NCBI RefSeq assembly: GCF_000695095.2
Contig: NZ_CP011454.1
Span: forward strand, 3,906,001-3,970,000
DNA from: Gemmatimonas phototrophica
GTDB taxonomy: Bacteria; Gemmatimonadota; Gemmatimonadetes; Gemmatimonadales; Gemmatimonadaceae
DNA length: 64,000 nucleotides
Direction of reading: 5' to 3'
Positions 9,736 through 63,062 of the stretch are shown piece by piece. The notes under the pieces were generated by a model, which made no database searches, had not been told where the DNA came from, and saw only the letters and a program-made list of their open reading frames with translations. Each line of letters opens with the position of its first letter. Position 1 is the first letter of the stretch. Position numbers and translations under genes: made by a program.

Positions 9736-10785
9736 ATGACACAACCCGCCGCTGCCGCGATGTCTTCGCTTCCCCTCCCCGCCCTTCCTCCGCGCCTGCC
9801 CTCCCGCGTGCTTGTCACCGGTGGTGCCGGCTTCATTGGCAGTGCCCTCGTCTGGGCACTGAACCAGCTGGGCGTGGAACGCATTGTGGTCACCGACCGC
9901 CTTGGCCGGGACGAAAAGTGGCGCAACCTCGTGCCGCTACGGTTCGAAGATTACCTCGAGGCGGACGACCTCATGGCCCCACTCACCAGCGGCGCGCTGG
10001 GGCATTTTGACCTCGTGCTGCATCTGGGAGCCTGCTCGGCGACCACCGAGTTGGACGCGACCTATCTCGCGCAGAACAACTTCGCCTACACCAAGCATCT
10101 GGCGCACTGGGCGCTGGGGCATGAGGTGCGGTTTGTCTATGCGTCCAGCGCCGCCACGTACGGCGACGGGGCGCTGGGAATGGACGACCGCGACAACAGC
10201 ACGGCCGGCTTGTCCCGTCTGCGGCCGCTCAATGCCTACGGGTATTCCAAGCACCTGTTCGACCAGTATGCGGCGGGCATGGGCGTGCTGCCCAACGTCG
10301 TGGGGCTCAAGTACTTCAACGTGTACGGCCCCAACGAAGCGCATAAGGCAGACATGCGCTCTCTGGTGCACAAGGCGTTCGGGCAAATCGAGGAGACCGG
10401 GCGCGTCAAGCTGTTCAAGTCGCACCGCCCGGATTTCCGCGACGGGGAGCAGCGCCGCGACTTCCTGTATATCAAAGATGCCATCGCAATGACGTTGCAC
10501 CTCGCCATGTCGCCGGAGGCCGGTGGGCTGTACAACATTGGCAGCGGTGAGGCACACACCTGGCTGGAGCTCACGGGGGCGCTCTTTACCGCCCTGGGCA
10601 AGGCGCCAGTGATTGACTTCATCGAGATGCCGGAGAGCATTCGCGCCAAATACCAGTACCACACGCAGGCGGAGATCGCCAAGCTGCGGGCCACCGGATA
10701 CACCGCGGCTGTCACGCCGCTGGCCGATGCAGTCCGCGATTACGTGCAGGGGTATCTCGTAGGGGATCACCGCCTGGGTGATTGA
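9736..10785 (+). CDS. hldD: ADP-L-glycero-D-manno-heptose 6-epimerase
   Basis: Extended short-chain dehydrogenase family. It converts ADP-D-glycero- to ADP-L-glycero-manno-heptose, the donor for LPS core heptosyltransferases. The NAD(P)-binding motif is VLVTGGAGFIGSALVWALN. The HldD-specific TDRLGRDEKWRNLVPLRFED follows, then the SSAATYGDG strand and the catalytic pair in YGYSK. With the ATG at 9736 the protein has 349 residues, slightly longer than usual because of a Pro-rich leader; ATG 9760 is an alternative. A GGAGG at 9716-9720 is 15 bp from ATG 9736. The partial GT9 gene at the left edge is a plausible user of its product. Confidence 0.93.
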   Translation: MTQPAAAAMSSLPLPALPPRLPSRVLVTGGAGFIGSALVWALNQLGVERIVVTDRLGRDEKWRNLVPLRFEDYLEADDLMAPLTSGALGHFDLVLHLGACSATTELDATYLAQNNFAYTKHLAHWALGHEVRFVYASSAATYGDGALGMDDRDNSTAGLSRLRPLNAYGYSKHLFDQYAAGMGVLPNVVGLKYFNVYGPNEAHKADMRSLVHKAFGQIEETGRVKLFKSHRPDFRDGEQRRDFLYIKDAIAMTLHLAMSPEAGGLYNIGSGEAHTWLELTGALFTALGKAPVIDFIEMPESIRAKYQYHTQAEIAKLRATGYTAAVTPLADAVRDYVQGYLVGDHRLGD

Positions 10786-10828
10786 GCGGTCGTTGAACGG
10801 CAGAGCGTTCGGGCCGATACATTCCGGC

Positions 10829-12298
10829 GTGCTCCGCCACCTTTTCCTCGCGTGCGCCCTGCTGCTGGCTGCCTGCGCCTCTCCCTCGTCGGCGCCGTCC
10901 ACCGTACTGCGGTGGGGCGGCGACGCCGAGGGCGGGGCGCCTTTTGTGGAGGCCGACCCCGCAGACCCGGCGCGTGTGCGCGGCTTCGACGTGGAGATCG
11001 TCGAGCAGCTGGCCCGGGGGCTGGGGCGGACGCCGCAGTTTGTGCAGGTGGCATGGGCCAACATTGAACAGTCGGTGGAGCGCGGGGACTTTGCGCTGGG
11101 ACTGTCGGGGCTCGAAGACCGTCCAGAGCTGCGCGAGCGCTACGCGGTCAGTCTGCCCTATTTCGAGTTCCGCGAGGTGCTGGCGGTGCGGCCGGCAGAC
11201 ACGACCCGCTATCACACGCTGGGCGATCTGGCCGGCAAACGGGTGGCGACGCTGGGCGCCACGCAGGCGTATCGACTGCTGCTCGACGCGCAGCGCGCCG
11301 ACGGGGTGGTGCCCGTGTCGTACGACGACGATGTGCACCCGTATACGGACCTCCTCGAGGGACGCGTGGACGCGGTGCTGTTGGATCATGTGATTGCTGA
11401 ACGGGCGCTCAAACGGACCCCGGGCTTTGTGATTCAGCCGGGAACGATTGCCGTTGGCCACTACGTCGCTGTATTCGCCAAGCGGAATACAGCGCTCCGC
11501 GATTCCGCCGATGCCATTTTGCGGGCGGGGCTCCGCGACGGGACGCTGGCGGCAATGTTCCGGCGGTGGGGGGTGTGGGATGCTCAGCAGGCCGCCTACC
11601 AGCAGCGTTTGTTGTCGGACAGTGCGGGAGTAGCCCGGGGACGGCCGGTGGTGGCGGGTGCGACAACCGTCTTCTCCTATCTGCCCGCGCTGACTCGCGC
11701 AGCGGGCATTACCCTCGGCATTTCGTTCGCGGCCATGCTGCTGGCCGTGTTGCTGGGCGTCGGCATTGCGGCCGGACGCGTGTACGGGAATGCGGCCACC
11801 CGGATGCTGCTGAGCGGCTACGTGGAAGTGGTGCGCGGCACGCCGGTGCTGCTGCAGCTGTTCGTGCTGTACTACGGACTGAGCGCCTTTATAGCCCTGC
11901 CGGCGCTGCTGGCCGCGATCATTGGATTGGGGCTCAACTACGCGGCGTACGAGTCGGAGATCTATCGCAGTGCCCTGCTGGCCATTCCGCGGGCGCAGCT
12001 GGAGGCTGGGCGCACCCTGGGGTTATCGGAGTGGCAAATCTTCCGGCTGATTCGCGCCCCGCAAGCGCTGCGGCTCGCGCTGGCGCCCATGACCAATGAT
12101 TTTGTGGCGCTGCTGAAGGACTCGTCGCTGGTGAGTGTGATTACGGTGGTGGAGCTCACCAAGCAGACGGCGATTTACGCCACCAACATTGGCAGCTGGT
12201 TTGTGCCGGGGCTGCTGTGCGCGGCCATGTATCTCGCCATGTCGCTGCCCCTGTCGCGGATGGCGCGCGCCCTGGAAGCGCGCTGGAGTGTGCGCTGA
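10829..12298 (+). CDS. Polar amino-acid-type ABC transporter: substrate-binding domain fused to permease
   Basis: A single protein of about 489 residues from GTG 10829. It starts with a lipoprotein-like signal (LRHLFLACALLLAACAS). A family-3 solute-binding domain (about 25-275) contains GFDVEIVEQLARGLGR and LGDLAGKRVATLGATQAYR. A HisM/GlnP-type permease follows (about 290-485) with several membrane helices and the coupling segment YESEIYRSALLAIPRAQLE. This layout resembles GlnP-type fusions. An upstream GTG at 10778 would overlap hldD by 8 bp but would bury the signal peptide. The ATPase gene begins on the last base of the stop (TGATG). Probable role: import of a polar or cationic amino acid; substrate not determinable here. 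Confidence 0.88.
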   Translation: MLRHLFLACALLLAACASPSSAPSTVLRWGGDAEGGAPFVEADPADPARVRGFDVEIVEQLARGLGRTPQFVQVAWANIEQSVERGDFALGLSGLEDRPELRERYAVSLPYFEFREVLAVRPADTTRYHTLGDLAGKRVATLGATQAYRLLLDAQRADGVVPVSYDDDVHPYTDLLEGRVDAVLLDHVIAERALKRTPGFVIQPGTIAVGHYVAVFAKRNTALRDSADAILRAGLRDGTLAAMFRRWGVWDAQQAAYQQRLLSDSAGVARGRPVVAGATTVFSYLPALTRAAGITLGISFAAMLLAVLLGVGIAAGRVYGNAATRMLLSGYVEVVRGTPVLLQLFVLYYGLSAFIALPALLAAIIGLGLNYAAYESEIYRSALLAIPRAQLEAGRTLGLSEWQIFRLIRAPQALRLALAPMTNDFVALLKDSSLVSVITVVELTKQTAIYATNIGSWFVPGLLCAAMYLAMSLPLSRMARALEARWSVR

Positions 12299-16420: not shown

Positions 16421-17317
16421 TTACCGTGGCGCGACGGGCGTCCAGTGCGCGGCAACCGCTTGTCCAATTCGCGCGATGACCGCATTCCCTTCCGAATCGG
16501 TCCAATAGCGTTTATCCACGTTCTCCCTCGTGAGCACGCACGCCACCACACGCGCCGGCAGATAAAGGACGCCACAGTCCGTGCGTGACTGATCCACGTC
16601 ACCAGTTTTGTGCGCCGCGCGCACGCCGTAATTGAAGCGCATGAGCTTCGAGTCGTCTTCGTTGTGCTCGAGGATATCCAGCATTACGGAGTCGGCCCGC
16701 GGACTGACCGCCTTGCCATGCGCCAACAGCGTAAAGAGTTGCGCCATTTCATTGGGCGTAGTAACGCCCAGTCCGTACTTGGCCGAACTGTCGGGGGCCA
16801 CACTGGCAATGCGGGTCATGCTCCCCGAGTGCACCTTGGTGCGCGGCAAGCCCAACGCTTCCATTTTCTGCCAGACGCGCCGGATCTTGATGCGGTCGAG
16901 TACCAGATTGGTGGCCGTATTGTCGCTCAACGTGGTCATGAGCCACGCGGCGTCCCACAGCCGCAGCGTGAGCGGCGTGCGCAGGTACTGCAGCTGGCCG
17001 GCACCGCCCACCTTGTCGATGGCCGTAAGCACCACGGGATCCTCAAGCGACAGCTGTTGCTGCTCGGCCAGATCAAACAGCGCCACCAGAATAGGCACCT
17101 TGATCAGCGACGCGGTGGAGAACGGCTCGTCGCCGCGTCGCTCCAGATGCTCGTTCGTTTCGAGATTGGTGATGCTGTAGCCCACCACGCCGCGGTGCCC
17201 GTCGGCAATGCTGTCGATGGTGCGGCGGAGGGTCGCTAGGGATTGCGCGGCGGCTGGCGCACCAGGAAGGGCGCCGGCCAGCAGGCCCACGCAAGCAAGA
17301 ACGGGGAGGAGTCGCAT
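16421..17317 (-). CDS. Class A beta-lactamase-fold serine hydrolase
   Basis: A 298-residue exported protein (signal peptide ending APAAAQ near residue 25). The three core elements of penicillin-recognising serine enzymes are present: SLIK (nucleophile Ser and Lys), SDN in LSDNTATN, and KTG in AHKTGDVDQS. The omega-loop region between SDN and KTG (around SGSMTRIASVAPDSSAKYGL) shows no clear ExxxN, so the deacylating Glu166 of true class A beta-lactamases is not apparent. It may be a weak or non-hydrolysing penicillin-binding or peptidase-like member. It stands alone, convergent with the lipoprotein gene and divergent from the flavoprotein gene. Confidence 0.85.
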   Translation of the reverse strand: MRLLPVLACVGLLAGALPGAPAAAQSLATLRRTIDSIADGHRGVVGYSITNLETNEHLERRGDEPFSTASLIKVPILVALFDLAEQQQLSLEDPVVLTAIDKVGGAGQLQYLRTPLTLRLWDAAWLMTTLSDNTATNLVLDRIKIRRVWQKMEALGLPRTKVHSGSMTRIASVAPDSSAKYGLGVTTPNEMAQLFTLLAHGKAVSPRADSVMLDILEHNEDDSKLMRFNYGVRAAHKTGDVDQSRTDCGVLYLPARVVACVLTRENVDKRYWTDSEGNAVIARIGQAVAAHWTPVAPR

Positions 17318-50032: not shown

Positions 50033-51451
50033 ATGAACGCACTTCGCATGTTGTTCCGATCGGCCAGTGTTGGCGCGGCGCTGATCCTGGTCACTTCTCA
50101 CGCGAGCGCGCAGGACGTACGTCAACGCGCCACGGTGAAAACCACACGCCCCGCCTCCTCACGCGCGTCGATGCGCGTTCCGGAAGCGGATGCCTTGCTC
50201 CCCTTTTCACAGCAGATTGCGATTCGCGAGCAGTGGCTCAGCAAGCGTCATGAGATGCTGTTGCCCATGATGCGCAAGCATGGCATTGGGATGTGGGTCG
50301 TGGTGAACGAAGAGTTCCACGATGATCCGCTCTCGCAGTATGTGGCGCCGCCGCGCCCCTACACGGGGAACCGGGATTTCTTCGTGTTCATCGACGCGGG
50401 GAGCGAAGGGCTGAAGAAGTACGCCATTACCGGCTATACCGAAGAGAATCTGGCCCGATTCTTTGACGCGCCGTTTACCGAGCCCCGCCCACCGGCGGCT
50501 ACGCTCCGTGATCTGTACGCCAAGTTCAAACCCGCCACGGTGGGACTGGGGATCCGCGGCACGCGCGGACAGACCCGCTCGCTGGGCTATGACAGCTACC
50601 GCTTCCTGGCGGAAACACTGGGCCCGGATGCAGAGAAGACGTTTGTGAGTGCCGGCGAACTCGTGCAGGAGTATCTGGACACGCGCATTCCTGAAGAGAT
50701 GGAGCACTACCGGACGGCGGTGAGCGTGACCGAAGCCATTGTGAAGCGCGCACTGTCCAACGAGATCATCACGCCGGGCAAGACCACGGTGGGTGATGTA
50801 CGCCGGGCCCTCTTTGACATGCTGTGGGCTGCCGGCGTGCGCACGTGGTTCCAGCCAGACCTGCGGGTGCAGCGGGCCAGCGGCGACGTGGCCACCTCAC
50901 GGGGCTTTTTAGCCGTCGCGCCGGAGGGGACGGTCATTGAGCGCGGCGATGTCGTGCACATTGATTTCGGGATCAGCTACATGGGCTTTGATACTGACTG
51001 GCAGAAGATGGCGTACGTCCTCAAGACCGGCGAGAAGGAGGTCCCTGCCGGACTGAAGCAGGCCATGGCCAACTCGAACACACTGCAGGACGCGCTCATG
51101 AAGCGTCACTCCCGTCCGGGGGCTACCGGGGGCTCGGTGTTCAACGCCACGATGGCCGAGATGAAGCAGCGTGGGATTGAGGCCATGATCTATTCGCACC
51201 CCATTGGTGCGCAGGGGCACGGACTGGGGGCATCCATCGATTTTCGGAGTGCGCTGCGCAGCGACACCACGGCGCAGAACTCGCGCCTGCGCAATGGCTC
51301 GTACATCAGCATTGAGCTCAACACCGCCACGCCTGTTCCGGAGTGGGGTGGCAAGAAGGTCTTTGTGATGTTCGAAGATGATGCGCATCTGACCGAGAGC
51401 GGCTTCACCTTTTTCCGACCGCGGCAAGAGCAGTTCTATCTCATTCGCTGA
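50033..51451 (+). CDS. Secreted M24-family metallopeptidase
   Basis: About 472 residues from ATG 50033, one base after the M20 stop; in-frame codons upstream belong to that gene. A signal peptide ends ASAQD. The N-terminal domain (about 60-250) is creatinase/prolidase-like, with [20 protein letters not shown]. The catalytic domain has metal ligands in [19 protein letters not shown] (two Asp), [11 protein letters not shown] (His), ISIELNT (Glu) and [10 protein letters not shown] (Glu). Expected activity is Xaa-Pro aminopeptidase or prolidase-like. The next gene starts at the last base of its stop. Confidence 0.9.
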
Positions 51452-52110
51452 TGTCGCACTACGTCGATCTCAGTCATCACATTGAAAGCGGGAAGGTGTA
51501 TTACAAGGGCCTTCCCGCGCCCGTGATCTGCGACTATCTCAGCCGCGAGGCCTCACGGGCATTGTACGCCGATGGCACTGAATTTCACATCGGCCGCGTC
51601 GAGCTGATTACCAACACCGGCACGTACATCGATTGTCCATTTCATCGCTATGCCGACGGGAAAGACACGGCATCCATGGCGCTGGAGCGGTTCGTGGATC
51701 AGCCGGCGCTGGTGGTGGACGCCACCGCGCGCACGGGGCGGGCCATTGGTGCCGAGCTGTTTGCAGGGCTGGCGGTGCGCGGCAAGGCGGTGCTGGTGCA
51801 CACCGGATGGAGTGCGCATTGGCAAACCGACCAGTATTTCGAAGGGCATCCCTATCTCACGGAGCAGGCCGCCTGTTGGCTGCGCGATGCCGGGGCCGTG
51901 CTGGTGGGGATCGATTCCATGAACATCGACAATACCGACGGCACCACGCGACCGGTGCATTCGGTCTTGCTGCGCGAGGAGATTCTCATTGCCGAACACC
52001 TGACGAATCTGTCGGTGCTCCCGCGTGAGGGGTTCACGTTCACGGCGGTGCCCCCCAAGCTTGTGGGCGTTGGCACGTTTCCGGTGCGCGCGTTCGCGAA
52101 AATCGGGTAG
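51451..52110 (+). CDS. Cyclase-family (kynurenine formamidase-like) metalloprotein with altered metal motif
   Basis: A 219-residue protein whose ATG shares a base with the M24 stop (TGATG). The family signature HxGTHxDxPxH is seen here as TNTGTYIDCPFHRY near residue 60: the first and second histidines are replaced by Asn and Tyr, while the Asp and last His remain. The rest of the fold is recognisable (LVHTGWSAHW, VLVGIDSMNIDNTDGT with DS in place). Family members hydrolyse N-formylkynurenine or related cyclic amides. Changed metal ligands make the activity uncertain. It has no signal peptide, unlike its two operon partners. Confidence 0.8.
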   Translation: MSHYVDLSHHIESGKVYYKGLPAPVICDYLSREASRALYADGTEFHIGRVELITNTGTYIDCPFHRYADGKDTASMALERFVDQPALVVDATARTGRAIGAELFAGLAVRGKAVLVHTGWSAHWQTDQYFEGHPYLTEQAACWLRDAGAVLVGIDSMNIDNTDGTTRPVHSVLLREEILIAEHLTNLSVLPREGFTFTAVPPKLVGVGTFPVRAFAKIG

Positions 52111-52683: not shown

Positions 52684-55065
52684 TCACGGCACCAACGGGA
52701 CAGCGAAGAAGCTCTTCGCACGCCACGATGGACGCGTCGCGCGATTGGCCACCCGTAACGCCAAATCGGCGTACATGGCGTTGAAGCGGGCCGCCGTCTC
52801 GAAGTTGACCGGCTGCGTAGTGTCGTCCGAGAGCTTGTGATAGTGGTCGCGAACCCACGCCTGCCAGATCGTGGCTTCGGGCGTACCCGGTGTATATCCG
52901 ACCTTGAACGCCAGCGCCGGTATGCCGCGCCGAATAAAGCTGTACTGATCGCTGCGCACAAACCGGTTTTCCTGCGGCTCCGGGTCGGGGAGTACGGCAA
53001 TCCCCCGCTCTCTCACCACGGCGTCGAGATCGTCGGCCAGATCCGATTCCTCGTACCCGTATGCGAAGACGCCCTTGAGCGGGATGAGCGGCAGAAACAT
53101 GTCGGTGTTGAGATTGGCCACGATGGTGCTGGTGCCGAGCGACGGATGCGCGGCGAACCAACGCGACCCCAGCAACCCCTTTTCCTCGGCCGTCACGGCG
53201 ACAAACGCCAGCGTCCGCTTGTTGCCACCGCGCTGCGCAACGAGCCGGGCGGTTTCCATGAGTGTGGCAGCCCCGGACGCGTTATCCATGGCGCCGTTGA
53301 AGATGCTGTCACCGGTGAGCACCGGGCCCTTGAAGGTGCCCACGTGATCGCTGTGCGCCGAATACACCACCACCTCGTGGCGCAGCGCCGGATCGGTGCC
53401 GGGAATGATCCCGACCACATTGGGTGACGTGAGCGTACGCCGGTGGGTTGGCAGCGTGGCCTGCAGCGACGTGGTCAAGGCACCCGTGGGCAGTGGATCG
53501 CCACGACTGGCCCGGGCGGCCACACTGTCCCACACCAATGCACTGCCCGCAAAGAGCCGCGGAATCAGTGCGGGATTGATGGTACCGCCCACCCGTTGGC
53601 CACGGGCATCATCCAACAGGCTGTCGGCAAGCGAAAGACTCGACGTGGCGCCGGCGCCGTTGCCCCACACGCCGGCACTGCCAATGGCAATGATGCCGAC
53701 GGCGCCGGCGTCACGCATGGCCGCCCAGCGATTGCGGGAGCCGTGCGCCTGCAGGGCCGGCGACAGACCGTTTGGCACTCCCGCCATGTGCACCACGATC
53801 TTGCCCCGGAGGTCGAGCCCGTTCAGATCGTCCACGCCGGCCTGCGGCAAGGAGAGTCCGTAGCCAGCAAATACCAGGGGCGCATCAACGTTGCCGGTGG
53901 CCGGGCGCGGCGTAAGCCGAAGATCACGACCGAGCACCAACGGCGTACTCCCAGTGGGCGTGCGCAGCGCCAGCTGCACCCGAGGCTGATCAAGCGTGAC
54001 TTCAACAAACGGGATGCGCTGAAACCAGCCGTCCGTTCCCGATGGTGTCAAACCAGCCGCCGCGAACTGCTGCGCGATATACCGGGCCGCACTTTCGTGA
54101 CCGGGCGACCCTGTGTCGCGTCCCTTGAGCGAATCGTGCGCCAGCACTTGCACATGGCGCCACCATTCGGTGGCTGGGGGCGCTGGAGGCGCGGGTGCGG
54201 CCGCCTCGGTCGCCAGGCGATTCTCCAACGCCACTCGAGAACTGACGGCCAATCGCTTGCACCCCTGCGCGTCAATAAGCGTGCCCTTGGCCACCCGTTC
54301 CCACAGCTGCGCGGCCCCGGGATGCGGCATCACCAGCAGGTCACAGGGCATCGTCTCAAACAACGCATGCGCCTTACGGAAATCCTGCACACCGGTGGAG
54401 TAGGTGCGACTGTCCGTGTACCGAAAGCCGTTCGCCGAAATCGGCGTCTGACTGTCCGCGTACACGACATCGACGCACGTGCTACCGTCGCAAGAGCGCC
54501 AGCTCCACGACGTACCACCGGGCGTGTGACCTCCGGTGAAATGCGCCGTGAGCGCCAGCCGTCCCACTTGCACCACTTCGCCGTCGCGCAGCACCCGTAC
54601 GCGCGGGACAGCTGGGAACGGGGCGTTCAAGCCGAACTGCGGATCATCCTCGAGCGCCGCCCCCGCCATGAGCCAGCGGGCGCTGGGCGCACTGGCGGCC
54701 ACGGTGGCGCCGCTGAGGCGGGCCAGCATGGCAATACCACCGGCATGATCGTTGTGCGCGTGTGAGTTCACGATGAGCTTCACATCGCTCAACTTGAAGC
54801 CGAGGGCCTCGATGTTGCGGCGAATCAGCGGCGCCGACTCCGGCAGTGCGCCATCCAGCAGCACATGGCCATCTGGGGAGGTGACCAGCAGGGCCGCGAG
54901 TCCGTTGGTCCCGACGTAGTACGTATTCCCGAACAGCTTGAGCGGTTCATGTGGCGTGTTCCATTCGGCACACGAGGCGCAATTCGGCGTGGGGGGCACC
55001 ACATCGCGATCCTGCGCCGCAGCACCGGCGGGGAGCAGCAACGCAAACAACAGGAGCATCCTCAT
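52684..55065 (-). CDS. Secreted fusion: subclass B3 metallo-beta-lactamase domain + M28 aminopeptidase domain
   Basis: A 793-residue exported protein (signal ending GAAAQ, about 18). Residues 30-285 are a complete subclass B3 metallo-beta-lactamase. Its zinc ligands are all present: SHAHNDHAGG (His102, His104, Asp106, His107), His180 in GGHTPGGTSWSW and His248 in MPHPGAAQ, plus B3 phrases LFGNTYYVGTNG and VYADSQTPIS. A Pro/Ala linker (about 286-299) leads to an M28 peptidase (about 300-775) with a PA-like insert and the co-catalytic zinc set: His571 in SAHSDHVG, Asp594 in MDNASG, Glu627/628 in AEEKGLLGS, Asp655 in NTDMF and His743 in YHKLSDD. One uninterrupted frame encodes both. It may open a beta-lactam or other amide and then trim peptides. 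It is last in a seven-gene co-directional run. Confidence 0.93.
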   Translation of the reverse strand: MRMLLLFALLLPAGAAAQDRDVVPPTPNCASCAEWNTPHEPLKLFGNTYYVGTNGLAALLVTSPDGHVLLDGALPESAPLIRRNIEALGFKLSDVKLIVNSHAHNDHAGGIAMLARLSGATVAASAPSARWLMAGAALEDDPQFGLNAPFPAVPRVRVLRDGEVVQVGRLALTAHFTGGHTPGGTSWSWRSCDGSTCVDVVYADSQTPISANGFRYTDSRTYSTGVQDFRKAHALFETMPCDLLVMPHPGAAQLWERVAKGTLIDAQGCKRLAVSSRVALENRLATEAAAPAPPAPPATEWWRHVQVLAHDSLKGRDTGSPGHESAARYIAQQFAAAGLTPSGTDGWFQRIPFVEVTLDQPRVQLALRTPTGSTPLVLGRDLRLTPRPATGNVDAPLVFAGYGLSLPQAGVDDLNGLDLRGKIVVHMAGVPNGLSPALQAHGSRNRWAAMRDAGAVGIIAIGSAGVWGNGAGATSSLSLADSLLDDARGQRVGGTINPALIPRLFAGSALVWDSVAARASRGDPLPTGALTTSLQATLPTHRRTLTSPNVVGIIPGTDPALRHEVVVYSAHSDHVGTFKGPVLTGDSIFNGAMDNASGAATLMETARLVAQRGGNKRTLAFVAVTAEEKGLLGSRWFAAHPSLGTSTIVANLNTDMFLPLIPLKGVFAYGYEESDLADDLDAVVRERGIAVLPDPEPQENRFVRSDQYSFIRRGIPALAFKVGYTPGTPEATIWQAWVRDHYHKLSDDTTQPVNFETAARFNAMYADLALRVANRATRPSWRAKSFFAVPLVP

Positions 55066-55090
55066 AAACTCGCTCGGGAATGAAGTGTGC

Positions 55091-55615
55091 TTACAGACTC
55101 GGCTGATACAGCATTACGGGATCGAGGCCAGGCGCTGAGGTCACCAGCGCATCGGCGCGGTACCCCAATGATTCGACCACGCGAATGGATGCCACATTTC
55201 CCGGTGCCACAATGGCAACGACGCGAGGCAGCTGCAGCGTCTCGCGGGCATACTGCAATACACCGGCGACGGCCTCACGGGCATATCCCGCGCCCCGGGC
55301 CTCGGGGACGAGGGCATACCCCACGTCCACGTCGTCCAGCGTTGGGCGCTTGAGCAGCCCACAGGTGCCAATGGGTACGCCGCCATCGCGATGTTCCACG
55401 CACCACAGTCCGAAGTTGTTTGCCTCGTAGGAGGCCAACGGACCGAAATCGAGATACTGGCGGGCGTCGGCTTCCGTCCGCACACCACGGTCCCCGATGT
55501 GCAGCAGGAAGGCGGGGTCATTCAGCAACGCGACGAGAAATGGCGCATCTTCGTACGTGAAGCGACGGAGCCGTAATCGTGCCGTGGTGATCACGACTCC
55601 GTCGACGATGCTCAT
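55091..55615 (-). CDS. GNAT-family N-acetyltransferase (RimJ/RimL-like)
   Basis: A 174-residue protein opening TARLRLRRFTYEDAPFLVALL, the RimJ/RimL-type start. The acetyl-CoA motif is around VDVGYALVPEARGAGYAREAV, and the C-terminal part NVASIRVVESLGYRAD completes the fold. It would acetylate an amino group of a small molecule or protein N-terminus; the substrate is unknown. The gene begins 1 bp after the stop of the upstream hypothetical gene and ends 25 bp before the metallo-beta-lactamase/M28 gene, so cotranscription is likely. Confidence 0.9.
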   Translation of the reverse strand: MSIVDGVVITTARLRLRRFTYEDAPFLVALLNDPAFLLHIGDRGVRTEADARQYLDFGPLASYEANNFGLWCVEHRDGGVPIGTCGLLKRPTLDDVDVGYALVPEARGAGYAREAVAGVLQYARETLQLPRVVAIVAPGNVASIRVVESLGYRADALVTSAPGLDPVMLYQPSL

Positions 55616-55616
55616 A

Positions 55617-56075
55617 TCATCCCTGCGCTGCCTTGGCCGCTGCGAGATGGGCCTGCACGCGCTTGCGGAACCGTTCGGCGATCAGTCGCCCCAGGTCGGT
55701 CTCTTTGGCCACCCATTCGGCGTTGCGAAACGCCAACGGATTGCCGATGTGCTGGCGATACTGGTCCAGCCACGGTTCGATGCGCGTGAACAGCAATAGC
55801 CCTTCGCCACTGCTTTCCATCATGAACTCCCCATGCATTACGCCGTGGCGGGCCATGGAGTAGACCATTTCCCAGTAGGTGGAGCACTGACGGAACGCCG
55901 CATTGAGTGGATGCTCCGGCTTGGTGACTGCCAGCACGTCGTCCCAACTGGCAGGGAGAAACCGGGCGACTACCGCGGTCCGTGATTCGCGCATGACCGC
56001 TTCACGGCGCAGGTCGTAGAGCTTGATCGCCAGGTCGGCGTCGTGATGATCCGGATGTTTCTTCTTGGGAGGCAC
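55617..56075 (-). CDS. Conserved-looking protein of unknown function
   Basis: A 152-residue soluble, helical, charged protein that opens with a basic/His segment (PPKKKHPDHHDADLA). Tryptophan-rich phrases (PASWDDVLAV, YWEMVYSMARHGVMHGEFMM) and RNAEWVAKETDLGRLIAERF suggest a real fold, but I cannot name a family. There is no signal or membrane segment. It sits in the co-directional run between the VOC gene (18 bp gap) and the acetyltransferase (1 bp gap). Confidence 0.7.
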   Translation of the reverse strand: MPPKKKHPDHHDADLAIKLYDLRREAVMRESRTAVVARFLPASWDDVLAVTKPEHPLNAAFRQCSTYWEMVYSMARHGVMHGEFMMESSGEGLLLFTRIEPWLDQYRQHIGNPLAFRNAEWVAKETDLGRLIAERFRKRVQAHLAAAKAAQG

Positions 56076-56093
56076 AGTGCTGATGGACAGAGG

Positions 56094-56483
56094 TCAGATG
56101 GCGGACACAAGGAGTTCACGGAACTGTACCACGTTGCCTTCCGGATCGCAGGCGTTGCAGGCGCGGAACCGCCGGGAGGTGAACTCCCGCTCGGGGGGAA
56201 AGACGAACCCTCCCAGCAGAGGGGCCATGTCTCGGGCCTTGGCCAAACTCCCGACCACGAAGAATGGCTTGATGGCCGTGTCTTCCCGCGGCTCAGGAGC
56301 CGCCCCCGACGCCGCCGGCGCCAGCACCTGAGGCGGCACCCCATGAATGACCAGTTCGGTACGATCTGAGGCGATGACCCGCAGCCCCGGCTCGACATAC
56401 ACCGGGGACATGGTGAGGATCACTTCGTAGAATCGCGCGACACGGTCCACGTTGGCCGCGAAGATGACGGCACCATTGTTCAT
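56094..56483 (-). CDS. VOC (glyoxalase/bleomycin-resistance) superfamily protein
   Basis: A 129-residue protein with a single VOC fold: the opening GAVIFAANVDRVARFYEVIL is typical, and the closing NACDPEGNVVQFREL matches the second metal-ligand strand. VOC proteins bind metals and small substrates; isomerase, lyase, dioxygenase or drug-binding roles are all possible. Its ATG overlaps the stop of the large amidohydrolase gene by four bases (56480-56483), implying coupled translation with it. Confidence 0.87.
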   Translation of the reverse strand: MNNGAVIFAANVDRVARFYEVILTMSPVYVEPGLRVIASDRTELVIHGVPPQVLAPAASGAAPEPREDTAIKPFFVVGSLAKARDMAPLLGGFVFPPEREFTSRRFRACNACDPEGNVVQFRELLVSAI

Positions 56484-59400
56484 CGAGGATCCTTCTTGTC
56501 GTGGTGCTCAACTTTTTTGCGATTCTGCTGCAGCATGTCGTCGTTCACCCAGTACGTTGGTCCAAACGGCACGGCTTTCGGCCAGATCTGATCGAGGGAC
56601 ATGGCATCATAGAGCATACCGCCCTTCATCACCAGTTGCGCGTCGGCCGTGCTCCGAATGTTCTCGAGTGGGTTGCCGTTGAGCACAAGCAGATCGGCGA
56701 CCTTGCCCACGCTCAGGCTTCCCAGATCCTTGTCGGCGCCAAGGAATCGAGCGCCGTGCATGGTGGCCACTTCCAGTGCGCCGTGATTTCCGAGCGCTGA
56801 GGCGCCCATCCACAGCTCCCAATGCGGGGCCAGACCATGATGCTCGCCGTGACTGCCCAGCGCACCCCAGCCCCCTTCGGCGATGATGTCGGCCATGGCC
56901 TGCGCGATAAAGGGGAAAGAGTAGTCGGTGGCGGGACGCAGGATACGGGTGCGCGTGTGCGGCACCAGCGCCCGCCACGGGAACCATTTCCGCTGCTTGG
57001 CATCCTTCCAGACATCCGACTCCTGGAACCAGTACTCAATGCTCCAGGGCCCCGGACCGGCAACCACGAGCGTTGGTGAATACGTGGCACCAGCTTTACC
57101 AAGAAACTTCGCGCCATCGCTGTACAGGGGGAGCTCGCTGAAGGCATGCTCCCATCCGGTCTGGCCGTCCATGATGAAGCCAAGGTTCTCGAAGAAGAAC
57201 CCGCCTTCGGAGGTGAGGTTGGCGCCCACCGTGCGAGCCGCGTCGGCCATCCATTGGCGTTGATCGCGCCGCGGTTGTGCGTATTGCTTGATGGCGGTGG
57301 CCCCCCACGACACCATTTTGGTCACGGCCGCGAGTGCATCCCGCGGATTGTTGATTTCGTTCGCGCGCGCGCCGTCGCCAGCCGTGATGTTGTCCCCCGT
57401 ACTGAAGCCGCGGGGACCAATGATCTCGCCCACCTCAACCAGTTCGGCGGTGGGAAACATGTTCTGGCTGTACATCGACACATCCATCGTGGTGGTCACA
57501 CCATACGCAAGATAGATGGCCTGCTCGAAGTCGTGCCGCGGACGCATGCCACGCCACTCGCGGTAGTGGTGGGAGTGCATATCCACCAGCCCCGGCATGA
57601 TGGTCTTTCCGGTCGCGTTCACCACGCGATCCACACCGGTTGTGCTGCATGTTCCCACACAGGTGATGCGGCTGCCCGTGACGACCACGGTTCCGTTCTC
57701 AATCACCTGACGATTGTCCATGGTGATGATGCGCGCGTTGGTCAATGCCACCGACCCCGTGGGGACGGCACGCGGCGCCGACAGACGCATGGTCAGCGTA
57801 TCGGTTTTTCCGGTGGTCACGTCATGCACGAAGTGCAACGCACCGCTCGCGTATTCGAGCATGGTTCCCGTGCGCCAGCGTGGGAATAACCCGCCATCGC
57901 GGGTGAGCGACGTGACCGGAATCTGCCCGCGTCGCTTCTCAATGCGCGGAATCGCGCTCCCCACGCCGCCCCACACCATGGGCGTGACGTACACGTTGTC
58001 CCCTTCCTGGAAGGCCAGCCACGCGCCATCGGGAGAGGGCAAGATTTCATCGGCATTGGGGAGCACCACATGATCGCGCAGATCGGTGCCGTTGGATGCC
58101 ACACTGCGGAGCGTGGTACCACGCACGCCCGTACGTTGCTCCGGCCAGAAGATGCGCCCCTCTGGGCCCACCGACGGTCGTGGCAGCTGGCGACGTGCTT
58201 CGCCCCCCACGGACGTGCCCGATGGGCGATTGATGGTGGCGAGCACCACACCAGTGTCTCCGCCCGCTGCCACGGCGTCAAAGCGCGTGATGTCGTACCA
58301 CACGTTGTGCGTCATGGTGCGGCCGCGGGCCGTGGCGCCTTCGCCGCGCGCCACAATGACGAACCGCCCGTCGGCGCTCCACACGGGGTCGGTGTAGTCA
58401 CCGGGATCGCGCGACAACCGCTGCGGCGTACCACCCACCGACGGCACCTTCCACACGTGTCCGCGCGCGCTGTCATCCCAGGTGACAAACGTGATGAACC
58501 GCCCGTCGGGGCTCCATGACGGCGCAAACTCCAGCGGACCAAAGGCGGCCGGCGTGAGACGGCGCGGCGTTCCCGCGACACCGTCCTGCACATGGACGCG
58601 ACCCAGCGCCTGAAACGCCAGGCGCTTCCCGTCGGGGCTGCTGGAAGACCATCGGAAGAACTTCGCCTGCACAGGATCATCGCTGAGGCGGAATTCCTTG
58701 CGCGCCATCTGCGAGATGGTGCGATGCACCGTCGCCGTGAAGGGAATGGTGCTCACGGCGCGCGTCGCCACATCCACCCGACGCACCTTGCCCCCCTGCA
58801 TCAGCACCAGGCTCTTGCCATCGGCCGCCCATTTGTAGCGCGGCAGCACCCCCAGCGTTTTCGAACCGCTCGCCGCCATGGGCTCAATGGGATCCATCAG
58901 CAATCGTTCGGCCCCCGTTTTGAGGTCGCGCAGCCACAACGAGGTGCGCGGTCCGAACTGATGCCCCTTGAATTCCAGCGTCCCGTCGGGAATGTGCCGG
59001 GCAAACGCCAACCATCGCCCATCGGGAGAGATCTCCGGTGCGGCCCCGCCCCCGCTCGAAAAGCGCGACGCGGCGGCATCGCCGGTTTCGCCGTTGGTGA
59101 TGTCCACGATCTCACCATTGGCGAAGGTGAAGCGCCGCAGCTGCTGCGCCCCGCCCACCGGCTCGCGAGGTTCCACGGGCATGGAGACGTGGTAATACAG
59201 GTGCTTCCCATCCGGTGACACGCTCGGCCACGACGGAGCGCCATTCACGCCGCCCGTACCGGCCGCCACCAACGGCACACCCGACCCCCCATCCTTGTGG
59301 TACATCCACAATCCGCCCGCCGGCGCCGCCCCCTCTCCACCACCGCGCCCGCCTTTGCGCACCACGATGAATCGCCCATCCGGGGTCCACGCGGGCTCGA

Positions 59401-59836
59401 AGGCCGTTGCGTTGAGATCCGTGAACACCGGGCGCGGGTTGCTGCCGTCGGCGTTCATCACCCAGAGATTGTACTGCCCGCGGCGATCGGTGATAAACGC
59501 AATCGTTTTGCCGTCGGGCGAAATACGGGGCTGCATGTTGAGTGCGACGCCAGTGTTCTGCGTGAGCACTGTGGCTGCACCACCAGTACTCGGCATGCGA
59601 TACACATGACCGAGCAAGTCGAACACCAGCCAGCTCCCATCGGCGGAGATGTCCACCGACATCCACGTCCCCTCACTGGTGGTGAAGTCGATATCTCGCG
59701 TCGTGCCACGCGCCTGCGTGACATCCCAGCGTGGCTCAGTGGCGGGCGCCTGCGCCACGAGGACGGGGGCGCTGCCTATCACCAGTGTTGACGTCACGAC
59801 GATGCGCAACGTGGTCGAGGCCAATCGAGTGGACAT
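56480..59836 (-). CDS. Secreted TolB/PD40-propeller amidohydrolase
   Basis: About 1118 residues from ATG 59836, which opens a signal peptide ending PVLVAQ; an upstream ATG at 59881 would overlap the preceding gene. Residues 50-650 form PD40/WD40-like propellers (MQPRISPDGKTIAFITDRRG, APSWPSVSPDGKHLYYHVSM, FAPSWSPDGRFITFVTWDD). Residues 720-1110 are a metal-dependent amidohydrolase: MPGLVDMHSHHYREW, the GATAIKQYAQPRRDQRQWM lysine segment, GALGSHGEHHGLAPHWELWM and the end SLSVGKVADLLVLNGNP. It probably cleaves peptides or amides outside the cytoplasm. The upstream neighbour is another amidohydrolase, 31 bp away. Confidence 0.9.
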   Translation of the reverse strand: MSTRLASTTLRIVVTSTLVIGSAPVLVAQAPATEPRWDVTQARGTTRDIDFTTSEGTWMSVDISADGSWLVFDLLGHVYRMPSTGGAATVLTQNTGVALNMQPRISPDGKTIAFITDRRGQYNLWVMNADGSNPRPVFTDLNATAFEPAWTPDGRFIVVRKGGRGGGEGAAPAGGLWMYHKDGGSGVPLVAAGTGGVNGAPSWPSVSPDGKHLYYHVSMPVEPREPVGGAQQLRRFTFANGEIVDITNGETGDAAASRFSSGGGAAPEISPDGRWLAFARHIPDGTLEFKGHQFGPRTSLWLRDLKTGAERLLMDPIEPMAASGSKTLGVLPRYKWAADGKSLVLMQGGKVRRVDVATRAVSTIPFTATVHRTISQMARKEFRLSDDPVQAKFFRWSSSSPDGKRLAFQALGRVHVQDGVAGTPRRLTPAAFGPLEFAPSWSPDGRFITFVTWDDSARGHVWKVPSVGGTPQRLSRDPGDYTDPVWSADGRFVIVARGEGATARGRTMTHNVWYDITRFDAVAAGGDTGVVLATINRPSGTSVGGEARRQLPRPSVGPEGRIFWPEQRTGVRGTTLRSVASNGTDLRDHVVLPNADEILPSPDGAWLAFQEGDNVYVTPMVWGGVGSAIPRIEKRRGQIPVTSLTRDGGLFPRWRTGTMLEYASGALHFVHDVTTGKTDTLTMRLSAPRAVPTGSVALTNARIITMDNRQVIENGTVVVTGSRITCVGTCSTTGVDRVVNATGKTIMPGLVDMHSHHYREWRGMRPRHDFEQAIYLAYGVTTTMDVSMYSQNMFPTAELVEVGEIIGPRGFSTGDNITAGDGARANEINNPRDALAAVTKMVSWGATAIKQYAQPRRDQRQWMADAARTVGANLTSEGGFFFENLGFIMDGQTGWEHAFSELPLYSDGAKFLGKAGATYSPTLVVAGPGPWSIEYWFQESDVWKDAKQRKWFPWRALVPHTRTRILRPATDYSFPFIAQAMADIIAEGGWGALGSHGEHHGLAPHWELWMGASALGNHGALEVATMHGARFLGADKDLGSLSVGKVADLLVLNGNPLENIRSTADAQLVMKGGMLYDAMSLDQIWPKAVPFGPTYWVNDDMLQQNRKKVEHHDKKDPR

Positions 59837-59867
59837 GGAGAGGGGAGTGGAGGGGGATGGCCAGCAA

Positions 59868-61217
59868 TCAGTGAGACGCATCGTGGCGGTGAATCACGCC
59901 ACCCTTCATGACAAAGCGTACGCGCTCAAGCGCGGTGATGTCCGCCAGTGGATCGCCGGGGACAGCAATCAGATCAGCCAGCTTCCCCGGGCGCAGCGTA
60001 CCAAGCTGGTCCTGCAACCCGAGAATCTCGGCGTTGAGCGCGGTGGCCGAGACGATGGCCGCCATTGGAGATTCCCCAAGCCGCACCCGCTCGCCAAACT
60101 CGCGGGCGTTCTGTCCGTGGGGGATGACCATGGCGTCGGTGCCAAAACCAATGGGTATCCCCGCCGCCAGCGCGCGACGAAAGCCGGCATCCTTGATGGC
60201 ACTGACCTGACGTGACCGCACCCGTTCGCTCTCGGGCACGGGGCTGTCAGGTCGATCAATCGCGGCCGATGTATACAACGTGGGCACGTAGAACGTGGCT
60301 CGGTTGGTCGCCTTGAGCAGTGCAATCGCTTCGTCGTCGAGATAGGATCCATGGTCCACCGTCCGAACGCCGGCGCGTATGGCGGCCTTGATGCCATCGG
60401 CCCCATGGGCGTGCGCCGCCGCTGGGCGCCCCCATCGACGGGCCTCGGTCACCGCCGCCTGAATCTCGGCATCCGAATACTGCTGGGCCCCCGGACTGAT
60501 CCCCTTGGACAGGACCGCGCCGGTGGCGAGAATCTTGATGTGATTGGCCCCCTGCTTGAGGTTGGTGCGCACGGCCTTCGTCACTTCGTCCGGCCCATCG
60601 GCGAGATTACGCACCATGGGGACCTCCACGTACGGACTGAACTGCCTGGCATCGCCCGCACCGCCCGTAGACGACACATAATTGCCGGCGACCAGCAATC
60701 GTGGGCCCACGACAAGCCCTTCGTCGATGGCGTTGCGCAATGCCACATCCACAAAGGGCCAGGTGGGCCCCATGTCGCGACAGGTGGTGAACCCCGCCAG
60801 CAGGGTAATGCGGGCATTGCGGGCGCCCCACAGCGCATCGTAAGCCGGCGTCGTCTTGAGCAGCCCGTCCTCCCAGTGCACCCGCTCATCACCCGTGAGA
60901 TGGGTATGCAGATCAATCAGTCCGGGGAGCAACGTCGCATTGCCGAGGTCGATGAGCTGGGCACCAGAGGGAACCGGCAGCGACGTACCGACAGCGGTGA
61001 TGCGCTCGCGCTCGATGCGCACCATGGCCGGCGACAGCACCGCTCCACCAGTGCCATCGATGAGTCGCGATGCGCGCAGCACAATGACCGTGGAAGCCGC
61101 GGGCGTCTGCGCGGCGGATTGTGCGGCCGCAGGGCGCGGGGCGCTGGACAGCATCGTCAGTACGCCCGCCGCGATGCCTGTTGCCACGCGCCCTGATCGA
61201 ACACGCGCGCGGACCAT
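59868..61217 (-). CDS. Secreted amidohydrolase (imidazolonepropionase/Xaa-Pro dipeptidase-like)
   Basis: A 449-residue exported enzyme (signal ending PAAAQ, about 33). The binuclear amidohydrolase set is visible: LLPGLIDLHTHLTGDERVHW (HxH), the probable carboxylated Lys in NHIKILATGAVLSKG, His in AAAHAHGADGI and VDHGSYLDDEA, and Asp in IGFGTDAMVIPHG. Relatives hydrolyse Xaa-Pro, Xaa-Arg or Xaa-Lys dipeptides. The start overlaps the stop of the upstream esterase gene by one base (TGATG). Function as a dipeptidase is inferred from family and context. Confidence 0.9.
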   Translation of the reverse strand: MVRARVRSGRVATGIAAGVLTMLSSAPRPAAAQSAAQTPAASTVIVLRASRLIDGTGGAVLSPAMVRIERERITAVGTSLPVPSGAQLIDLGNATLLPGLIDLHTHLTGDERVHWEDGLLKTTPAYDALWGARNARITLLAGFTTCRDMGPTWPFVDVALRNAIDEGLVVGPRLLVAGNYVSSTGGAGDARQFSPYVEVPMVRNLADGPDEVTKAVRTNLKQGANHIKILATGAVLSKGISPGAQQYSDAEIQAAVTEARRWGRPAAAHAHGADGIKAAIRAGVRTVDHGSYLDDEAIALLKATNRATFYVPTLYTSAAIDRPDSPVPESERVRSRQVSAIKDAGFRRALAAGIPIGFGTDAMVIPHGQNAREFGERVRLGESPMAAIVSATALNAEILGLQDQLGTLRPGKLADLIAVPGDPLADITALERVRFVMKGGVIHRHDASH

Positions 61218-62980
61218 CAGTAGCGCCAGCTCAGCGTATCCGCACCACGCGGCGCCCGCGCGCGCATGCGGTCGAGAATGCGCGGGATATACATCTGGTG
61301 ATAGCGCAGCCGCGAATACGCGTTGCTTCGCGTGGCATCACCGTTCCAGCAATGCTCGGCGCGATCCCCGTAGGTGATCTCGCCACTCCACTTGGGCGTG
61401 CTGGTGCCCTTCAGGAAGTCCTCCACGAGATACACGGCATTGTTGAGATAGTAATTGTCCATGTCTCCGACATAGATGTTCAACTTGTCGTGCACCTTGG
61501 GGCCCAGTGTGGCCCAGTCGCGGCGCAGGATATACGACAGATCGAAGTGCTCGCGCCAGTACGCAGCGACTTCCTTATCGATCACGCCGGTCTTCTTGTC
61601 CCAGATGGGCTTGGGATAGCCATCGGCGCCCATGGGTGAATAGGTGGCCTGCCAGATGTCCCACTGATCACCACTGCGCCCCTTGCTGCCCAAAGCCGCT
61701 TCGCGTCGATTGGCCTCTTCCATGGTGGTCTGCACCTGCCCGAGGTCGTTGCGATGCGCCGGGCGCGGCGTGCGCTTCCACTGACTGTCGAGGAAGAACG
61801 CGTTCGTCTCCTCGTACAGATTGAAGACCGTATTGGCGCGGAAGTCGATGGGGTCGGGGCACGCAATGTACGCCCCGTTGAATTCGTCCGGGTAGAACAT
61901 CTGCACGGCCATGGCTTCCCAGCCACCGGTGCTGCCGCCGTATGTGATGCGCGCCCACCCTTGCCCGAGGCCGCGGAAGCGCTTCTCCACTTCGGGGATG
62001 AGTTCGTACATGATGGCGTCGCCCCACGGCCCCTGCGACGCGGAATTCACGGCGTACGAATCGTCGTAGTACGGAGTGGGGTGACGCACTTCCATGAGCA
62101 GCACACGCGGGAAGTTCGGCCCCGTCCAGTCCTTGTAGAACTGGTGGTTGAGCTCCTGCTGAATGCGGTTGTACCCGGCGAGATTGAAGCGCGCCGAGAA
62201 ATCCGGCTTGAGATTCGGATCGGGGGGTGTCTCGCGAAACCCTTCGAAGGTGGCCGGAAAGTGTCCGTGGTAGACCACCAGCGGATAGCGTGCCGCGGCA
62301 TGTTCGTCAAAGCCTGCCGGGAGCAGCACGTTGGCCCCGATATACATGTCGCGTCCCCAGAACTTGGAGAGCCGCTCACTGCGGATGGTGACGTGCTTGA
62401 TCCACTTCGTGTCCTGCGGCGGCGCAATGGCCGGGATTTCCTGATCGAGCACCACCGTTGGCAGCATCCGCTGACGCGCATCGAGCGTGACCCAGCGTGG
62501 CGTGCTGTACAAATTGCCCGGCTTGCGGCTCCACTGTTGTCCTTCGCCTTTGTCGGGCGGGAGTTTGACTGTGTGTCCGGTGCTCAACGTGAAGGTTTCG
62601 TAGCGATTGAGCAGCGCCTGCACCCAGTAGCGCCCGCGCGGCAGATCACGCAGCGAGGCGAGGGGATACGCGTCGGCGCGTTCGGTCACCATGCGAGCGC
62701 TCCCTGGCTGCCAGCGCTCGACATCGGTACCGAACACCAATTGCGATTCGGCGCCATCGCTGATCTGGAAGCGTGGCTCGCGGGTGCTGTCGGTGGAGAT
62801 GAGAAGCAGCAGCCGTCCATCCAGCGGCGCCGTGGCTTTTCCCGTAGGCAAGGTGACCTGCACCTGTACCGACGGCCGCGGTGGGGTGGGGGTCGGCTGC
62901 GCCGGCAGCAGAGGCGCCCCCAATGGCAGCGCCAGCGTTAGGATGGCAGCGCGAACGGCGAACGGGCGGGCAGGCAGCAT
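61217..62980 (-). CDS. Secreted alpha/beta-hydrolase (esterase-like)
   Basis: About 587 residues from ATG 62980 (an upstream start at 63022 is less likely), with a signal peptide ending PLLPAQ. The N-terminal 200 residues are beta-rich. The hydrolase part begins at MYIGANVLLPAGFDEH and YPLVVYHGHFPATFEGF. The nucleophile elbow is YGGSTGGWEAMAVQMF, like enterochelin-esterase and acyl-esterase relatives, and a late histidine in GDRAEHCWNGD may complete the triad. The substrate is unknown. It is the first gene of the seven-gene co-directional run ending with the metallo-beta-lactamase/M28 fusion. Confidence 0.83.
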   Translation of the reverse strand: MLPARPFAVRAAILTLALPLGAPLLPAQPTPTPPRPSVQVQVTLPTGKATAPLDGRLLLLISTDSTREPRFQISDGAESQLVFGTDVERWQPGSARMVTERADAYPLASLRDLPRGRYWVQALLNRYETFTLSTGHTVKLPPDKGEGQQWSRKPGNLYSTPRWVTLDARQRMLPTVVLDQEIPAIAPPQDTKWIKHVTIRSERLSKFWGRDMYIGANVLLPAGFDEHAAARYPLVVYHGHFPATFEGFRETPPDPNLKPDFSARFNLAGYNRIQQELNHQFYKDWTGPNFPRVLLMEVRHPTPYYDDSYAVNSASQGPWGDAIMYELIPEVEKRFRGLGQGWARITYGGSTGGWEAMAVQMFYPDEFNGAYIACPDPIDFRANTVFNLYEETNAFFLDSQWKRTPRPAHRNDLGQVQTTMEEANRREAALGSKGRSGDQWDIWQATYSPMGADGYPKPIWDKKTGVIDKEVAAYWREHFDLSYILRRDWATLGPKVHDKLNIYVGDMDNYYLNNAVYLVEDFLKGTSTPKWSGEITYGDRAEHCWNGDATRSNAYSRLRYHQMYIPRILDRMRARAPRGADTLSWRY

Positions 62981-63062
62981 GGCATTTCCCGGAGTCAGGG
63001 GGGGTGGTGTCCCGCCTAACATACGCCCGGGTGGAGTGACCTGCTGCTGCGTGCCCTATCGC

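Follow-up and report, generated by a model that had tools for sequence, protein, structure and literature searches.

An in-frame fusion of a subclass B3 metallo-beta-lactamase and an M28 peptidase in the genus Gemmatimonas

In the window analysed here, a stretch of 64,000 nucleotides from the genome of Gemmatimonas phototrophica (one contig of 4,716,552 bp), a single reading frame joins a subclass B3 metallo-beta-lactamase domain to an M28 peptidase domain downstream of a common N-terminal signal peptide (table 1). This hydrophobic sequence ends in AAAQ and is the only one of its kind in the whole protein. The gene is located at the downstream end of a minus-strand series of genes that overlap or lie close together (52684-63022). 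In order, these encode an esterase-like protein, an amidohydrolase, a TolB-propeller/amidohydrolase of 1133 amino acids, a protein without a Pfam match, a DUF4760 protein, a GNAT acetyltransferase and the fusion protein, and they probably represent a single operon of secreted hydrolases. The same genome also holds type II reaction-centre genes, whose M and cytochrome subunits are identical, as far as they align, to those of PDB 7o0u, the G. phototrophica complex; within the window there are no Rfam matches.

Table 1. Features of the fusion gene and its conserved neighbours (window positions).
Feature	Position	Strand	Basis
Fusion gene, 793 codons plus stop	52684..55065	minus	ATG start, no internal stop; second fused copy in G003
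Signal peptide MRMLLLFALLLPAGAAAQ (approx. residues 1-18)	55012..55065	minus	Sequence and hydropathy; no lipobox cysteine
Subclass B3 metallo-beta-lactamase domain, residues 34-287	54205..54966	minus	NF033105; PDB relatives; residues
Ala/Pro-rich junction AAAPAPPAPPATEWW, approx. residues 288-302	54160..54204	minus	Junction alignment with G016, G013, G003 and G005
M28 peptidase half, residues 297-793	52687..54177	minus	Pfam; invariant residues; structural match
GNAT acetyltransferase gene, directly upstream of the fusion, conserved neighbour	55091..55615	minus	Pfam; synteny
Putative cyclase/arylformamidase-like gene, convergent, conserved downstream neighbour	51451..52110	plus	Pfam PF04199; synteny

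The N-terminal half matches NF033105, the NCBI equivalog model for subclass B3, over its entire length (model positions 1-257 of 257) with 313.1 bits against a cut-off of 240. All zinc ligands are present (His102, His104, Asp106, His107, His180 and His248), with the zinc motif reading HAHNDH and not the HARLDQ variant. Structural matching gave 44-46% identity to Rm3 (5iqk; 46%), MEM-A1 (6e0s), AIM-1 (4awy) and SMB-1 (3vpe), with which the B3 half has the full-length domain and the complete set of zinc ligands in common. By these characters, it falls well inside canonical subclass B3 and, having all that beta-lactam hydrolysis requires, it would most likely cleave beta-lactams in the periplasm or outside of the cell. 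The four relatives, however, are single-domain proteins, whereas the Gemmatimonas protein continues in frame into a C-terminal M28 peptidase, i.e. it departs from the stand-alone status that is usual, though not defining, for subclass B3. From the same genus as the host of the fusion, another subclass B3 enzyme, GRD33-1, has been assigned to Gemmatimonas by functional metagenomics; in E. coli, this soil-derived enzyme shows activity towards imipenem (PMC5184135), and a term search of that paper found no mention of a peptidase or a fusion. The suggestion in an earlier note on this DNA that the protein may mark an ancestral, non-resistance role of the B3 fold is unsupported, as the B3 half is canonical and the fusion is derived rather than ancestral.

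The C-terminal half contains the Pfam M28 domain PF04389 (139.5 bits against a cut-off of 21.3, at residues 549-766) with its metal ligands and catalytic residues His571, Asp594, Glu627, Glu628, Asp655 and His743, and an alignment of 32 relatives shows no variation at any of these positions. By both profile and fold, aminopeptidases match this half best, with glutamate carboxypeptidases matching too. The aminopeptidases of Aneurinibacillus (2ek8), Pseudomonas aeruginosa (PaAP; 8ack), Bacillus subtilis (YwaD; 6hc6) and Vibrio (1amp) have the M28 fold and all metal-binding and catalytic residues in common with the M28 half, but are only approximately 20% identical to it and are not linked to a lactamase domain. 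The M28 half has all that peptide hydrolysis requires and is most likely an aminopeptidase, which would remove N-terminal residues from peptides. Altogether, twelve of twelve metal-binding or active-site residues were found in the fusion protein, all of them at the positions given in the earlier note, whose description of a single secreted protein with complete B3 and M28 domains is borne out by the reading frame, the profile matches and the residues.

In a predicted structure of the full protein, confidence is fair to high for most of the M28 half and low for the B3 half, the latter because few alignment rows cover this part. Its fold matches were M28 aminopeptidases first, and its B3 part matched Rm3 and AIM-1. 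Since the metal sites are partly located in low-confidence stretches, and the placing of the two halves relative to each other is not readable, the model alone is no proof that both sites form; that the metal sites are intact is argued from residue conservation instead.

That two separate genes are found in close relatives might suggest that the joined frame is an assembly or sequencing artefact, generated by a missed stop codon or a frameshift. This is extremely improbable, because a whole segment, comprising stop codon, spacer and signal peptide, and not a single base, is absent at the joint, and because a second genome has the same joint: in G003, an independent draft genome of the same genus (L144/L027) with a run of N within its B3 half, the junction is read through in one frame (NRLATEAASPPVPPAAEAWWRYVQVL). 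With the window itself belonging to a single-contig genome, an error of this kind between the domains, as the earlier note had asked about, is practically excluded. The two halves of the gene are also near-equal in GC content by codon position (0.67/0.52/0.78 versus 0.68/0.53/0.77). A separate M28 product made from an internal start was considered and rejected, since none of the in-frame GTG or TTG codons near the junction is followed by a signal peptide and such a product would go unexported. As there is no second export signal in the protein, the M28 half depends on the signal peptide of the B3 half, by which the entire product is most likely exported. By its sequence, the B3-M28 fusion is a genuine new domain architecture, built from two well-known enzyme families.

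How this architecture came about can be read from the relatives. In genomes of the same genus, the M28 protein is mostly stand-alone and secreted, and in G009, G018, G005 and on one contig of G013 its gene occupies a conserved locus, with some or all of three small genes (encoding a protein without a Pfam match, a DUF4760 protein and a GNAT acetyltransferase) upstream and convergent cyclase, M24 and M20 genes opposite. In G016, a B3 gene lies between the GNAT and M28 genes at this position; the two enzyme genes are adjacent and unfused, with each product having its own signal peptide, the B3 gene ending in its own stop codon and the M28 signal peptide being followed by AAPAPPPQAPPAGSAAEAWW. 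At the window junction, the B3 C-terminus NRLATE leads directly into AAAPAPPAPPATEWW, and stop codon, spacer and M28 signal peptide are all absent. Aligning this junction with those of G016, G013, G003 and G005 showed that what looks like a linker corresponds to the N-terminus that unfused M28 proteins have in their mature form. In G005 and G029, B3 and M28 genes are found at different loci. In G013 (L139, G013:C114, approx. 10200-11400), a GNAT-B3-M28 tandem was observed in which the M28 gene is broken off after its first part; another contig of this bin carries an intact M28 gene, and recombination, pseudogene formation or mixing of genomes in the bin are possible causes.

We consider it likely, therefore, that the gene is a lineage-specific in-frame fusion of two adjacent genes for secreted enzymes, with the halves acting as independent enzymes that are served by one export signal. 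A B3 gene would have been placed directly upstream of the M28 peptidase gene; once its stop codon had been lost together with the short spacer and the signal peptide of M28, the two would have become joined in frame, with the product being exported via the B3 signal peptide. What the covalent link provides would be shared export and a fixed stoichiometry rather than a shared substrate pathway. Both halves are under purifying selection, as indicated by their dN/dS values (B3, 0.12-0.14; M28, 0.10-0.17), which are rough, since dS is near saturation. In the M28 tree, the window half is sister to the M28 proteins of G009 and G018 (support 100/99), both of which are unfused, and a single clade of the fused M28 halves (window and G003) was rejected with an AU p of 0.003, a test to which G003 contributed only 107 residues. 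The M28 halves thus speak against a single simple origin of both fusions, whereas the B3 tree is weaker and does not resolve the B3 halves. This pattern may be due to two separate fusions or to a single one that was later split in G009/G018. As the fused M28 halves are not sisters, the fusion could have arisen twice and been favoured, which would count against the reading given above.

On a larger scale, B3 genes above the cut-off are present in 56 of 298 Gemmatimonadota genomes and in 58 of 179 genomes of the family Gemmatimonadaceae. In 46 inspected Gemmatimonadota genomes, the B3 frame ends no more than 38 codons from the aligned B3 domain, and the statement of the earlier note that B3 enzymes are normally stand-alone thus holds for these genomes. 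Long in-frame C-terminal extensions of B3-type domains were found only in the window and G003 (both M28), in G210 and in G355. The G210 gene (L152, G210:C170, 1-2820; P0002) is one frame of 940 codons, with its 5' end cut by the contig, in which a B3 domain with complete zinc motifs is followed by a Pro-rich linker and an alpha-galactosidase (melibiase)-like domain; like the window gene, it combines B3, Pro-rich linker and a second hydrolase in one frame, but its partner is alpha-galactosidase-like instead of M28 and its N-terminus is missing at the contig end. In G355 (L166, G355:C28, frame from 1182, plus strand), a B3-like domain that has lost its metal ligands (SQARIDNAG) precedes an alpha/beta hydrolase, the latter named by motif inspection only. 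Shorter tails of approximately 100 codons follow the B3 domain in G193 and G374; in G193 (L132, G193:C38), the B3-like motif reads HAHCDHAGD and the frame continues for 98 codons into a stretch that by eye is DUF2283-like.

The B3-M28 fusion itself was found in two genomes only, both Gemmatimonas, in a search of Gemmatimonadota and Acidobacteriota, which beyond the phylum covered 297 Acidobacteriota genomes and 8 single genomes; among the matches listed for the 297 Acidobacteriota genomes, B3 and M28 were neither fused nor adjacent. With only these two genomes carrying the domain pair and no paper on a B3-M28 fusion found in the open-access literature, it does not appear to be an already well-described family. 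A parallel is offered by LRA-13 and its homologues, a class C-class D beta-lactamase fusion, which is likewise a natural in-frame fusion from environmental bacteria with both sites complete; there, however, both halves are serine beta-lactamases and fusion widens the spectrum, whereas the Gemmatimonas partner is a peptidase (PMC5967600).

The other possible readings concern what the joined halves do. The earlier note had taken the covalent pairing as a sign of one pathway, in which ring opening of a lactam or other cyclic amide by the B3 half is followed by trimming of the resulting peptide by the M28 half, such that a peptide antibiotic is both detoxified and used. The pairing as such, with both sites intact, an abundance of secreted peptidases and amidohydrolases in the neighbourhood and a fusion that possibly occurred more than once would all be in line with this idea. 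Yet the join looks like a local event between adjacent genes, and the halves also occur apart: in 30 Gemmatimonas genomes, 8 have both genes, 6 only B3, 5 only M28 and 11 neither, a co-occurrence that falls short of significance (Fisher one-sided p 0.15), and G005 and G029 keep the two at different loci. An aminopeptidase, moreover, acts on a free N-terminal amine, which hydrolysed penicillins lack when their side chain is acylated. Finally, B3-type domains in the family have other partners as well, one sugar-hydrolase-like and one an alpha/beta hydrolase, and this variety suggests that joining is opportunistic and involves whichever secreted gene happens to lie downstream. The single-pathway proposal is thus unsupported and, in our judgement, quite improbable.

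The same variety of partners (M28, melibiase-like, alpha/beta hydrolase), including one case of lost metal ligands, could also mean that the B3 domain serves the fused protein mainly in a structural, binding or export capacity, with its lactamase activity being incidental and B3-type folds having been recruited in front of secreted hydrolases in this family. We regard this as rather unlikely, given that the window B3 half retains all its ligands under purifying selection and that 46 inspected B3 genes are stand-alone. It is clearly unlikely, too, that a fused B3 fold has repeatedly been recruited as N-terminal module of secreted hydrolases in Gemmatimonadaceae for a role beyond resistance, e.g. 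in substrate handling, stability or export, a reading that counts the M28 peptidase (possibly twice), the alpha-galactosidase-like domain and the alpha/beta hydrolase behind a dead metal site. A neutral fusion, joined by deletion, tolerated without advantage and heading towards a new split, would agree with the mixture of fused, tandem and separate states on the trees and with the unfused state of G009 and G018 as sisters of the window M28 half; it is very unlikely, however, in view of the conservation of both halves and a joint that is in frame in two genomes. The fusion of neighbouring genes for two enzymes that most likely work independently is thus the reading we prefer.

Resistance to ampicillin and penicillin has been reported for G. 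phototrophica (PMC7844134, PMC8779627), which is also cultivated with ampicillin (PMC8779627, PMC5749889, PMC7844134). This phenotype fits an active B3 half but is confounded by class A-like proteins. One of these, a class A beta-lactamase-like secreted serine hydrolase with SLIK, SDN and KTG motifs, is encoded in the window itself (16421-17317, minus strand; 85 bits with NF033103, cut-off 200), and a second one elsewhere in the genome (L175). Both are possible alternative sources of penicillin resistance, and an attribution of ampicillin resistance to the fusion gene alone was rejected on account of these two candidates. G. groenlandica is amoxicillin-susceptible (PMC7844134) despite having a stand-alone B3 gene.

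For the annotation of resistance genes, the fusion illustrates that a confident B3 match may span only approximately one-third of a protein. Separate, tandem and fused states, all found within one genus, outline a route by which an environmental beta-lactamase gene may become joined to its neighbour. With G. phototrophica being in culture and ampicillin-tolerant, the share of a fused beta-lactamase in the natural resistance of this organism is thus amenable to experimental testing.
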